Shown in pieces: positions 2,046-62,345 of a stretch of DNA of 64,000 bases. Each line of letters starts with the position of its first letter. Positions within the stretch are counted from its first letter, which is position 1. This DNA is from Anoxybacillus tengchongensis (GTDB taxonomy: Bacteria; Bacillota; Bacilli; Bacillales; Anoxybacillaceae). The stretch lies in the NCBI RefSeq assembly GCF_014201585.1, contig NZ_JACHES010000001.1, positions 124,001 through 188,000 on the forward strand, in the 5' to 3' direction. The position numbers were made by a program, and so were the translations under genes. The notes beneath the pieces are model-generated. The model was not told the origin of the DNA. It did not search any database and worked only from the letters and a program-made list of their open reading frames with translations.

Positions 2046-3482
2046 ATGACGGTTGCGTTTTCTGAAAAAATGACGGTGAATGTGGACAAGTTGAATGAAG
2101 ACATTCGCCTGTTTCCACAAGTGCACCCGATTACCCCTGAGATGCACATTACATATAAGGGTGTATCGCGTTTAGTGATGCTCGATCGCTATTCGTTTAA
2201 AGATACGGAAAAGTTGACGTTAAGCGTCGGAGATTTTGTCGTTTTAACCGTGAAGGAAGATCCGAAGTTTCCAGCGCGTGGCCTTGGATTTATCGTTGAG
2301 CTGGACTGGGAAAATAAAAAAGCACACGTGCTTGTTGAAGAAGAATATCGTCATGTGTTGGAAGGAGAGGAAGCGAAAACAGGCATTGTTGTTCGTTCCC
2401 TCGATGTCATTGAAAAGCCACTCGAAATTTTTTATGAACAAATTGCGAAGCGGAACGCAACCGGGCTAGCCGCTGTGGAGCAAACAGAAGAGAAACGACA
2501 AGAGTGGTTTGAAAAGTTTTATGAACAGCTCGTCAGCCTGAACTTTGTTCCAGCTGGACGCGTATTGTATGGCGCAGGTTCTGGGACAGAAGTGACGTAC
2601 TTTAACTGTTACGTCATGCCATTTGTTAAAGACTCGCGCGAAGGCATTTCTGAACATCGCAAACAAGTGATGGAAATTATGAGCCGCGGTGGCGGTGTAG
2701 GAACGAACGGTTCGACTCTTCGTCCACGCAATACACTTGCGCGCGGAGTGAACGGAAAATCGTCCGGATCGGTGTCATGGCTAGACGACATTGCGAAACT
2801 TACCCATCTTGTAGAACAAGGTGGCTCGCGCCGTGGCGCTCAAATGATTATGCTAGCCGATTGGCACCCGGACATTATTGAATTCATTATTTCGAAAATG
2901 CAAAATCCGCGCATTTTGCGCTATTTGCTTGAAAACACAGAAGATGAAGGCATTCAAAAAGCAGCGAGAGAAAAATTAAAGTTTACGCCACTTACTGAAC
3001 AAGAACGCGCGATGTATCAAGGGATTGTCAATTACAAAAACATACCAGGTTACGGTGGTTTCACGGAAAAAATAATTAAAGATGCAGAAGAAAAGTTGCG
3101 GACAGGCGGAACGTATAGCGTGCACAATCCGGACTTTTTAACAGGGGCGAACATTTCTGTTTGTTTAACGAAAGAGTTTATGGAAGCGGTAGAAAAAGAT
3201 GAAGAGTATGAATTGCGCTTTCCAGATGTTGAAACGTATTCAGAAGAAGAAATGCGTATTTATAACGAAAAATGGCATGAAGTTGGCGATGTGCGCGAAT
3301 GGGAGAAAATGGGCTATCGCGTTCGCGTCTATCGGAAAATTCGTGCGCGCGAGCTATGGAAGCTCATTAACATTTGTGCAACGTATTCAGCAGAACCCGG
3401 CATTTTCTTTATCGACAACGCCAACGACATGACGAACGCAAGAGCGTATGGGCAAAAAGTAGTCGCAACAAATCCGTGTGGT
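2046..3482 (+). CDS. nrdJ: Adenosylcobalamin-dependent ribonucleotide reductase (class II), exon 1
   Basis: This is the 5' exon (479 codons) of a class II ribonucleotide reductase, which makes deoxyribonucleotides using a thiyl radical generated by adenosylcobalamin. Visible features are FNCYVMPF with Cys188 (one half of the redox pair), RGGGVGTNGSTLRPRNT, EQGGSRRGAQM, and at the exon end N476-P-C478-G, where Cys478 is the expected thiyl-radical residue. The reading frame runs straight into an intron and meets TAG two codons later, so unspliced RNA would give a 480-residue dead protein. Joined to exon 2 it gives 853 residues in one frame. GAGGAGAGG precedes the ATG. Confidence 0.93.
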
Positions 3483-3738
3483 GAGTAGTTTGCCTCACGT
3501 AAAAAACTGCGGAATGAAGCAGGAACCCTGAGATGGGAACCTGAACCGAAGGCTGAGCCTAAAAACTCAGTCAGGGGCAACGCATACGGAGTGAACCTGC
3601 CTATATAAAAGGCAGAATATAATCTCCGCAAGAGGCCGCAGCACTAATGAACATTCGTTAGTGAAAACGTATGCTGAGCTAACGGGAAATGAACCGTTAG
3701 AACTATCGGATAAAAAGCCGATAGGATAACATAAGCTG
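3483..3738 (+). ncRNA. Group I intron (256 nt, ORF-less) inside nrdJ
   Basis: Exon 1 ends in U3482 and the intron ends in G3738, as group I rules require. P1: exon GTGTGGT (3476-3482) pairs with the guide GCCTCAC (3492-3498), one mismatch, with the U-G wobble at the splice site. P10: GTTT (3488-3491) pairs with exon 2 GAAC (3739-3742). P3: CTGCGG (3507-3512) with CCGCAG (3636-3641). P7: GCATAC (3582-3587) with GTATGC (3669-3674). P8: CACTAA/TTAGTG (3642-3663). P9 hairpins lie at 3679-3700 and 3703-3724. P- and Q-like elements are GCAGGAA (3519-3525) and CTGAGCC (3553-3559). The order P3-P7-P3'-P8-P7' is the group I pseudoknot. From memory the 3' end resembles the phage Twort intron (ending AACATAA..G). 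No endonuclease ORF is present. Splicing restores Glu480 and the full frame. Confidence 0.93.
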
Positions 3739-4863
3739 GAACAACCACTTGCGCCTTATTCTGTGTGCAATTTAGCTGCGATTAATTTGGCAAATATGGT
3801 CGATAAAGAAAAGAAAGTCGTTGATTATGAAAAGTTAAAACGAACGGTTGAAGTTGGCGTCCGTATGCAAGATAACGTCATTGACGCCACGCCATATTTC
3901 CTTGAGGAAAATAAAAAGCAAGCGCTTGGCGAGCGCCGCATCGGTCTTGGCGTCATGGGACTAGCTGATTTGCTCATTTATTGTGAAAAAGAGTACGGCT
4001 CCGAAGAAGGCAATCAGTTAGTGGACGAGCTGTTTCAAACGATCGCGACAACGGCGTATCGTGCGTCGATTGAACTCGCAAAAGAAAAAGGAAGCTTTCC
4101 GTTTTTAGTCGGTGAAACAGAAGAAGAAACGATGAAATTGCGTGAAGCGTTTATTCACACCGGTTATATGAAAAACATGCCAGACGATATTCGACAAGAT
4201 ATTCTAACGTACGGCATTCGCAACTCGCATTTATTAACGGTTGCTCCGACTGGATCCACAGGAACCATGATCGGCGTGTCTACAGGACTTGAGCCATATT
4301 TTTCTTTTTCTTATTATCGAAGTGGGCGTCTTGGTAAATTTATTGAAGTAAAGGCGGATATCGTTCAAGAATATTTGGACAAACATCCAGAAGCGGATCC
4401 GAATAATTTACCGCATTGGTTTGTAACCGCGATGGATTTATCGCCAGAAGCGCATGCGGATGTACAATGCATTATTCAACGTTGGGTTGACTCTAGCCTT
4501 TCGAAAACGGTGAACGCACCTCGTGGCTATACGGTCGAACAAGTGCAAAAAGTGTACGAACGATTATGGAGAGGTGGCGCAAAAGGCGGCACAGTATATG
4601 TCGATGGTAGCCGCGATGCGCAAGTATTGACATTAAAAGCGGAAGAACATGCGATCGAAGAGCAACTTGAGCTTCTTCCAGAAGAACCGAAAAAACGAGC
4701 AGTTGCAATCGTCGAAACGATTCCAGATTTACGGGCGACAGACGTTACGATCGGTTCAGAAGTCGGCAACATTTGCCCGGTATGCCGCGAAGGAACGGTC
4801 GAAGAAATCGGTGGCTGCAACACATGTACAAGCTGCGGTGCGCAATTAAAATGTGGTTTGTGA
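3739..4863 (+). CDS. nrdJ: Adenosylcobalamin-dependent ribonucleotide reductase (class II), exon 2
   Basis: The 3' exon begins with the codon for Glu480 of the N-x-C-x-E catalytic motif and continues QPLAPYSVCNLAA. Cys489, 11 residues after the radical cysteine, matches the second half of the redox pair in class II enzymes. Further on are a GERRIGLGVMGLADL-like block, APTGSTGTMIGVSTGLEP, typical of the barrel C-terminal part, and a cysteine-rich tail with CPVC, CNTC and CTSCG, like the zinc-ribbon/relay cysteines of NrdJ. Taken alone it would have no start: the first in-frame GTG is at 3763, inside the conserved block. It is therefore an exon, not a second gene. Confidence 0.92.
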   Translation, partial: EQPLAPYSVCNLAAINLANMVDKEKKVVDYEKLKRTVEVGVRMQDNVIDATPYFLEENKKQALGERRIGLGVMGLADLLIYCEKEYGSEEGNQLVDELFQTIATTAYRASIELAKEKGSFPFLVGETEEETMKLREAFIHTGYMKNMPDDIRQDILTYGIRNSHLLTVAPTGSTGTMIGVSTGLEPYFSFSYYRSGRLGKFIEVKADIVQEYLDKHPEADPNNLPHWFVTAMDLSPEAHADVQCIIQRWVDSSLSKTVNAPRGYTVEQVQKVYERLWRGGAKGGTVYVDGSRDAQVLTLKAEEHAIEEQLELLPEEPKKRAVAIVETIPDLRATDVTIGSEVGNICPVCREGTVEEIGGCNTCTSCGAQLKCGL

Positions 4864-62229: not shown

Positions 62230-62345
62230 GTTTCCTTCCTTGTTCATCGCGCCCGATTTCGCAAAAAAGCTACTCTCGTTTTCTTGGCACTCCGAAGGCT
62301 TCACTTCCCCACTAACGTATGGGTACATAGTCATGTCACATCATG
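62230..62345 (-). ncRNA. Probable omega RNA region at the right end of the TnpB element
   Basis: Known TnpB elements encode their guide RNA across the 3' end of tnpB and the right end of the element. Here, after the tnpB stop, the leftward strand shows a hairpin CCCA-TACGTTAG-TGGG and a GAAG/CTTC structure, followed by unrelated AT-rich sequence before namA. The exact right end, and so the guide, cannot be fixed from one copy. Confidence 0.35.

Follow-up and report, generated by a model that had tools for sequence, protein, structure and literature searches.

A probable phage-type group I intron in the bacterial ribonucleotide reductase gene nrdJ of Anoxybacillus tengchongensis and its relatives in bacilli and phages

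Two self-splicing introns were reportedly described by Landthaler et al. (2002) in the nrdE gene of the Staphylococcus phage Twort. Like the intron of this study, these are group I introns located at conserved positions in a gene for the large reductase subunit; unlike it, they reside in the phage nrdE instead of nrdJ, and their insertion points match, by eye, the nrdJ sites A and C. They are also called self-splicing in PMC3653736. For the Bacillus cereus group, group I introns were described in nrdE, nrdF, and recA, and for thermophilic bacilli in flagellin genes (PMC3984707). These introns resemble the one presented here in occupying chromosomal protein genes of bacilli and, for some of them, in being described as phage-like, but differ in their host gene, the comparison being made by description only (PMC3984707). 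A further set of relatives is formed by introns in or beside phage genes annotated as terminase, DNA polymerase, and RecD-like helicase, as well as by introns on viral contigs, which possess the same core (model R1, see below) but other host genes and other guides; among the phage relatives, R1 matched weakly in two cases (L114, 34 bits; L116, 18 bits). For reductase genes, the RNRdb reports a curated set of over 100 group I introns, and it may therefore already list nrdJ introns of this kind. In the available portions of the mostly open-access literature on introns of nrdJ or class II reductases and of Anoxybacillus, Geobacillus, and Parageobacillus, no description of this intron was found (for further background, see PMC4853749, PMC2795772, and PMC2814812). 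A 2014 review states that there is little evidence for the horizontal movement of group I introns among bacterial species (PMC3984707).

The intron analyzed here is located in a stretch of 64,000 nucleotides of the A. tengchongensis genome, referred to as the window. With high confidence, it is interpreted as a phage-type group I intron that would splice itself out of nrdJ and that belongs to a mobile lineage residing at the NPCG/E point of this gene. Judged by its sequence and that of its relatives, the intron appears to be real and is very probably active; it would be of an ordinary kind, in surroundings that display the mobility of bacterial introns with unusual clarity. The analysis itself provided the anatomy of the intron, the covariation of its helices, the constraint on the exon codons, and sequence evidence of horizontal movement.

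Host gene and anatomy of the intron

The gene nrdJ spans positions 2046 to 4863 on the plus strand and is split by a 256-nt insert (3483–3738) that starts with GAGTAG and ends with AAGCTG. Based on its motif and its single-gene layout, we take the host gene to be of class II (NrdJ). The last codons of exon 1 are AAT CCG TGT GGT, and exon 2 begins with GAA CAA CCA at position 3739. Joining 2046–3482 to 3739–4863 resulted in one open frame of 853 amino acids containing the motif NPCGEQPLAPY and featuring a single, terminal stop; the statement of the sequence-only reading that splicing connects both halves in frame and restores a conserved motif was thus confirmed. In the Pfam search, the ribonucleotide reductase barrel (PF02867) was assigned to both halves, and the nearest named relatives of the NrdJ segments were of the Anoxybacillus type (99%). 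Among 80 named homologous loci, representing the best 80 of 562 confirmed stretches, 68 read straight through the NPCG/E point (site B), whereas 12 are interrupted there. The following features, all on the plus strand, were assigned:

2046–3482, plus: nrdJ exon 1, codons 1–479, ending in NPCG (ORF list, Pfam PF02867 and PF00317, spliced frame)
3475–3482, plus: exon strand of P1, CGUGUGGU; U3482 pairs with G3492
3483–3738, plus: group I intron without ORF, 256 nt (spliced frame, covariation, core model R1, P1 comparison)
3486–3488, plus: in-frame TAG, intron codon 2 in the frame of exon 1
3488–3491, plus: intron strand of P10, GUUU; partner GAAC at 3739–3742
3492–3499, plus: internal guide sequence GCCUCACG, the 3' strand of P1 (P1 comparison over 49 rows)
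3507–3512, plus: 5' strand of P3; partner 3636–3641; both sides change in 2 of 6 pairs
3520–3543, plus: P4 (3520–3523/3540–3543) and P5 (3526–3528/3535–3537); 3 of 7 pairs change on both sides
3551–3572, plus: P6 hairpin (3551–3557/3566–3572); 3 of 7 pairs change on both sides
3580–3586, plus: 5' strand of P7; partner 3670–3675; 6 of 6 pairs in all 12 rows, invariant
3587–3628, plus: P7.1 (3587–3591/3624–3628) around P7.2 (3597–3601/3611–3615); both-side changes in 5 of 5 and 2 of 5 pairs, respectively
3636–3641, plus: 3' strand of P3 (covariation alignment)
3642–3663, plus: P8 hairpin, the place of the ORF in relatives
3670–3675, plus: 3' strand of P7 (covariation alignment)
3677–3678, plus: 5' strand of P9.0, AG; partner CU at 3736–3737; both sides change in 1 of 2 pairs
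3679–3700, plus: P9 hairpin (3679–3685/3694–3700); both-side changes in 2 of 7 pairs, pairing in 91.7% of cells
3703–3724, plus: P9.2 hairpin (3703–3709/3718–3724); both-side changes in 3 of 7 pairs, pairing in every cell
3738, plus: terminal guanosine (omega G); a 3'-end G in 20 of 20 site-B introns displayed
3739–4863, plus: nrdJ exon 2, codons 480–853, beginning with EQPLAPY (ORF list, spliced frame, Pfam)

By eye, the helices are arranged in the group I order P1, P10, P3, P4, P5, P6, P7, P7.1, P7.2, P8, P9.0, P9, and P9.2. All elements previously placed from the letters alone (P1 with its U.G pair, P10, P3, P7, P8, and two P9 hairpins) were recovered, and P4, P5, P6, P7.1, P7.2, and P9.0 were located in addition. 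The characteristic features of a group I intron were found, namely the U.G pair in P1, P3 and P7 interlocked around P4–P6 and P8, an omega G with P9.0 and P10, and a restored reading frame.

The strand 3463–3760 folds 6.1 standard deviations below dinucleotide shuffles, none of 200 being as low. Covariation was evaluated for 12 site-B introns, seven of which had their ORFs trimmed, in a MAFFT alignment made without structure. Pairing was observed in 96.8% of 821 cells, and 26 of 70 pairs (99 cells) change on both sides; since the tested structure was drawn with the letters of these 12 relatives in view, these values lean towards the aligned sequences. No column shuffle out of 500 reached the number of paired cells, the both-side changes counted by pairs or by cells, or the covariation score, and for three of the five change-counting covariation measures none of the 500 was as high; one measure, further pair types, did not exceed the shuffles (329/500). 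Sliding the partner strand by one to three columns reduced pairing to between 31% and 39%. Both P3 and P7 are paired throughout the 12 rows, with covariation seen in P3; the catalytic helix P7 is invariant and therefore carries no covariation evidence. P1 is also invariant in this set. On the MAFFT alignment, the loop-side pairs of P8 fail (38.9% of cells), and two rows have a misaligned P9. P10 is composed of only two pairs in L041, L008, and L012–L015, and of three in L086 and L034–L036.

According to the proposed mechanism, the exon end CGUGUGGU would pair after transcription with the guide GCCUCACG to form P1, and a guanosine held in P7 would attack after U3482. In the second step, with P10 and P9.0 providing the alignment, the released exon end would attack after omega G3738, yielding an uninterrupted nrdJ mRNA. 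The stop at intron codon 2 may halt the ribosome ahead of the ribozyme core. Catalysis of this kind is presumed to take place in vivo as well as in vitro.

Guide sequence, exon codons, and class assignment

The pairing across the exon–intron border was compared over 49 rows, some of which repeat genomes present in two collections. These rows include a set of 44 (23 distinct intron heads) selected by a pattern that demanded the guide GCCTCACG, and the hand-chosen loci L111, L115, and L282; two loci out of 46 (L133 and L141) failed the pattern and, read by eye, show a compensated guide. Every one of the 49 rows retains seven P1 pairs and has the U.G pair, together with a U.U mismatch at exon position -4. 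The G-C pair at exon position -7 is replaced by A-U in three rows (L133, L141, and L282) and the one at -2 by C-G in a single row (L282).

The exon 1 end CCGTGTGGT occurs in 12 of 12 occupied nrdJ genes versus 6 of 67 typed empty ones (Fisher 3.6e-10, not corrected for relatedness); 68 genes, including L088, are empty at site B, L088 being left out of the typing. The search pattern for this exon end admits synonymous variants only, and the remaining empty genes differ at synonymous positions. Because of this distribution, the guide appears to dictate the codon choice, unless it is the intron that is confined to sites with suitable codons. In Geobacillus, the loci L037–L039 end in CCGTGCGGG and L040 in CCATGTGGG, both lacking the U at -1. 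Together with the spliced frame, the covariation, and the P1 pairs, this codon constraint upholds the originally proposed ORF-less group I intron and its splice sites.

Of 44 introns, 42 have an in-frame stop within their first six codons; counted by distinct heads, these are 21 of 23, as against 8 and 4 of the 23 in the other two frames. The letters of this stop vary (TAG, TAA, or TGA), and it is absent in two introns, L086 and L132, which stop at codons 11 and 9, respectively. According to PMC3984707, such stops are viewed as evidence that a stalled ribosome aids folding and splicing.

It had also been predicted that the Rfam model Intron_gpI (RF00028; 50-bit bar) would match the intron. This did not hold, as no match was obtained in 3380–3840 even at E 10. 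The published Twort nrdE introns are likewise missed by RF00028 at E 0.1, and its silence is thus uninformative regarding group I status. In ten scanned nrdJ loci, the model did not respond to any of six site-B introns, although nine introns at other nrdJ sites were recognized; four interruptions of more than 1 kb at other sites of these loci were missed as well. In 20 R1-positive loci, RF00028 gave no match at the place of R1 (20/20), resulting in 26 of 26 further introns of this class without an RF00028 match at their place. Annotation relying on RF00028, which misses the lineage, would therefore perceive nrdJ as broken frames. Other Rfam families yielded two sub-threshold matches in 3380–3840 at E up to 10 (E 4.8 and 8.1), which were rejected as chance.

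Regarding the subgroup, P9.0 and two P9 hairpins are present, and P7.2 is nested inside P7.1, not beside it, an arrangement that we assume to be closer to IA1. Subgroup IA2 is marked by the hairpins P7.1 and P7.2 plus P9.0, P9.1, and P9.2 (PMC4227781 and PMC3428280). The likeness to the Twort introns suggested by the sequence-only reading was not supported for the core: R1 detected nothing at E 0.1 in positions 1–80,000 of the 130,706 bases of Twort, and an origin from Twort-type introns was discarded on this result.

Distribution of the intron and its movement between genomes

To follow the lineage, R1, a covariance model of the intron core only, was built from 10 sequences. At E 0.001, it matched in 59 of 397 genomes of the order (61 matches), 50 of these genomes at E 3.3e-20 or better and nine at E 2e-7 to 2e-4, so the claim that such introns are uncommon in bacterial chromosomes stands in relative terms only. 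All 30 loci looked at among the 61 matches lie at site B of nrdJ. In the A. tengchongensis genome, R1 matched once, in nrdJ. By means of blastn, 16 of 41 genomes of the family matched, 15 of them in nrdJ and one (G064) elsewhere; the latter carries two R1-class introns (L022 and L023) 18 kb apart, and the 3.2 kb retrieved there showed no match to nrdJ.

Two megaplasmid nrdJ genes (L111 and L115) also harbor an R1-class intron. On a 722-kb Aneurinibacillus plasmid (L282, 2044–5756), a different reductase gene encoding PF17975 (RNR_Alpha) and PF21995 (B12-dependent insertion domain) is interrupted at the matching NPCA/E point by an intron with an R1 core of 35 bits, whose P8 ORF is 36% identical.

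The suspected connection of the RNA to phages was corroborated. In total, 17 phage records matched parts of the intron in blastn searches, none over 80% of its length, and at least two pairs of them are duplicates of one phage. On viral contigs, R1 matched in 80 of 80 tested loci, out of at least 120 retrieved with an 18-nt word of the core, matched exactly, that is itself part of R1; none of the 80 showed an nrdJ match. From the viral loci, 16 upstream frames were drawn, ten of which were scanned with PHROGs. Five were assigned to the terminase large subunit (L230, L176, L174, L185, and L216), two to a DNA repair exonuclease (L181 and L165), and two to an endonuclease family (L182 and L222), while L161 matched only two unnamed families common to four of the five terminase frames. 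On one viral contig (L232, 3932–5213), a stretch of 1.3 kb contains a single R1-class match together with three to RF00028.

Further introns and RNAs were noticed in the course of these searches. In the nrdJ genes of L029–L108, intron-like interruptions occur at two neighboring points near GGSR/RGAQ (codons 262 and 264; 11 and 10 of 80 loci) and at APTG/STG (codon 651; 6 of 80), with three interruptions per gene in L042, L055, and L091. The nine RF00028-confirmed introns of the ten scanned loci belong to these sites, and ORFs of the LAGLIDADG (L030) and HNH (L042) types were seen in introns at such sites. In the A. tengchongensis genome, two tandem RF00028 introns (L121 and L122; G000:C12:17732–18533) directly follow a flagellin-like frame, with a minus-strand LAGLIDADG-like ORF downstream (by eye), and a sub-threshold RF00028 match of 38.5 bits (L123; G000:C18:7950–8320) is located near an HNH-like ORF and a queF-like frame (by eye). 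A RAGATH-18 RNA was identified in the window at 62236–62298 on the minus strand (62.9 bits, E 4.1e-10).

Movement is most evident for relatives that carry an ORF of 311 amino acids in P8 (e.g., L013:1697–2629). The introns of L013, which belongs to the genus of the window (g1), and L014, which belongs to g6, the genus of P. caldoxylosilyticus (contig L007/L041), share 1194 matches with six mismatches and one gap. In three comparisons of L012/L013 (g1) with L014/L015 (g6), dS was between 0.011 and 0.017 for the ORF and between 1.48 and 1.80 for the exon (last 600 nt of exon 1), without correction for relatedness, as for all dS values given here. The reverse was observed for L013 compared to L042/L006 (exon dS 0.18, ORF dS 2.5). 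Because near-identical ORFs thus reside in distant exons, and the opposite applies to L013 and L042/L006, the sequences make a clear case that the ORF-bearing allele moved horizontally across genera. Long co-conversion tracts around the moved introns were not seen, L013 and L014 sharing nine and eight adjoining exon bases.

The intron of the window is 255/256 identical to those of L002, L031 (A. voinovskiensis), and L055 (a MAG); the sole difference is intron base 175 (position 3657, in P8), which is G in the window and A in the other three. Whole-gene exon dS from the window amounts to 0.37 (L002), 0.55 (L031), and 0.57 (L055). Within genus g1, the intron is present in four of nine genomes in two different alleles. 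These data favor movement over vertical retention, between which the sequence-only reading had left the choice open (kept vertically or moved by a partner). For the ORF-less form, movement is likely but not proven, since slow evolution of the RNA may explain part of the near-identity.

That the near-identity of the ORF-less copies (window, L002, L031, and L055) reflects vertical descent of a slowly evolving ribozyme is considered rather unlikely. A slow core is indeed seen elsewhere, L131 and L138 being 97.5% identical in the core at an exon dS of 0.73, and the window and L005 98.8% at 0.80 (four mismatches between their introns in a gapped alignment). However, L002, L031, and L055 share the same 256 bases, loops included, at exon dS values of 0.36–0.38 among them (last 600 nt of exon 1; scored as L002 versus L003/L004), and the patchy presence with two alleles in g1 speaks against this explanation, which, moreover, leaves the ORF-bearing allele with its clear movement untouched. 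Less probable still, and in our view unlikely, is that the ORF-less copies traveled, without any homing, as passengers of nrdJ segments exchanged by homologous recombination (natural transformation). No endonuclease would be required in that case, and the P8 ORF was not found in the A. tengchongensis genome (G000), G003, G020, and G033; however, the shared flanks are short, the nearest mismatches lying at -31/+39 (L002–L031), -22/+30 (L002–L055), and -43/+12 (window–L002). A third explanation, according to which a group I intron by descent now splices poorly in a decaying nrdJ that is read only to NPCGE*, is very improbable: the in-frame TAG and the class I reductase also encoded in this genome, owing to which nrdJ need not be essential, would fit it, but the exons are by codon comparison under strong purifying selection (dN 0.008–0.017 and dS 0.37–0.57 between the window and L002, L031, and L055; dN/dS about 0.02–0.03), the spliced frame holds a terminal stop only, all core helices are intact, P1 and the exon codons are retained, and the intron is 255/256 identical to copies in three other genomes.

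The preferred reading is that the RNA represents a phage-type lineage that would have settled at the NPCG/E point of nrdJ in Bacillaceae. Full versions encoding the 311-residue, endonuclease-like P8 ORF would move between genera, and ORF-less versions, that of the window included, would be stages after loss or replacement of the ORF. More tentatively, and somewhat short of an even chance, the ORF-less form may itself be mobile, having recently spread to at least four genomes of two genera while neither encoding the P8 endonuclease of its sister introns nor residing in one genome with it, and with little flank conversion; the two genera are groupings of the genome collection, and the two carriers with named records are both called Anoxybacillus.

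The ORF of related introns and significance of the lineage

Related introns differ in the state and place of their ORF. Thirteen P8 ORFs were aligned, the others being between 59% and 88% identical to the first, and their last codons overlap the 3' strand of P8, J8/7, and the 3' strand of P7. In L035 and L036, the ORF is located in P7.2 instead (inserts of 588 and 903 nt, respectively); that of L036 encodes helix-turn-helix repeats and matches the group I intron endonuclease family TIGR01453 below threshold (38.5 of 56.05 bits). Apart from one 941-nt deletion that takes out the ORF, L008 matches the ORF-bearing L013 at 258 of 259 bases, and on account of this single deletion and single mismatch, it is read from the alignment as a case of ORF loss. 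The allele of the window is close to the ORF-bearing L005 and L042 outside P8, whereas the P8 hairpin differs; it would have arisen by ORF loss through replacement or represent an ancestral ORF-less state, the former direction being the one we infer.

No Pfam or NCBIfam family matched the P8 ORF above the cut-off, and tblastn detected nothing at E 0.001 in 50,697 phage records. Relatives elsewhere were confined to one weak piece in viral contigs and one plasmid. In PHROGs, phrog_21138 (function unknown) matched residues 8–90 (1.8e-9), and HNH families matched weakly further on (2e-6 and 3e-6; domain level only). Comparison to PDB sequences gave no convincing match (best E 0.24 and 0.34). The structural model (pLDDT 79.5, pTM 0.43) obtained nothing at E 0.001 or better in Foldseek (best E 0.015); in VIA-align, its N-terminal part reached a Z of 8.2 to TnsA (3.1 Å, 114 residues), the best among the folds listed, 6.5 to I-Bth0305I, and 6.3 to Vsr. 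The likeness to I-Bth0305I/Vsr-like and TnsA-like nucleases thus concerns the predicted fold, without a convincing sequence match. The residues E19, D50, E65, and K67 as well as four cysteines are invariant in 13 of 13 P8 ORFs. The product is accordingly predicted to be endonuclease-like, with an N-terminal part resembling the restriction-endonuclease-like fold, and would act as a nuclease; the family is possibly a new homing endonuclease of the PD-(D/E)XK type with a zinc-finger-like middle.

A P8-ORF query matched in G006 and G031 and, in two pieces, in G027. A P8 endonuclease acting in trans within the A. tengchongensis genome was rejected as a candidate, since this query found nothing there; as two endonucleases of other families were seen by eye beside other introns of this genome, a trans partner of another family is possible. 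If the ORF-less form is itself mobile, its spread in bacterial chromosomes would rely either on reverse splicing or on an endonuclease that a donor cell, phage, or plasmid supplies in trans.

The P8 ORF may represent a homing endonuclease family not described so far, for which the NPCG/E point would be a ready target. Since alleles with and without the ORF occur at one site, thermophiles that can be cultured would lend themselves to tests of homing, trans-homing, and reverse splicing. With the same ORF-bearing allele occurring at exon dS values of 1.5–1.8 beside ORF-less versions, gain, loss, and spread would be displayed within one gene, and the finding bears on a poorly documented point, namely the movement of group I introns between bacterial species.
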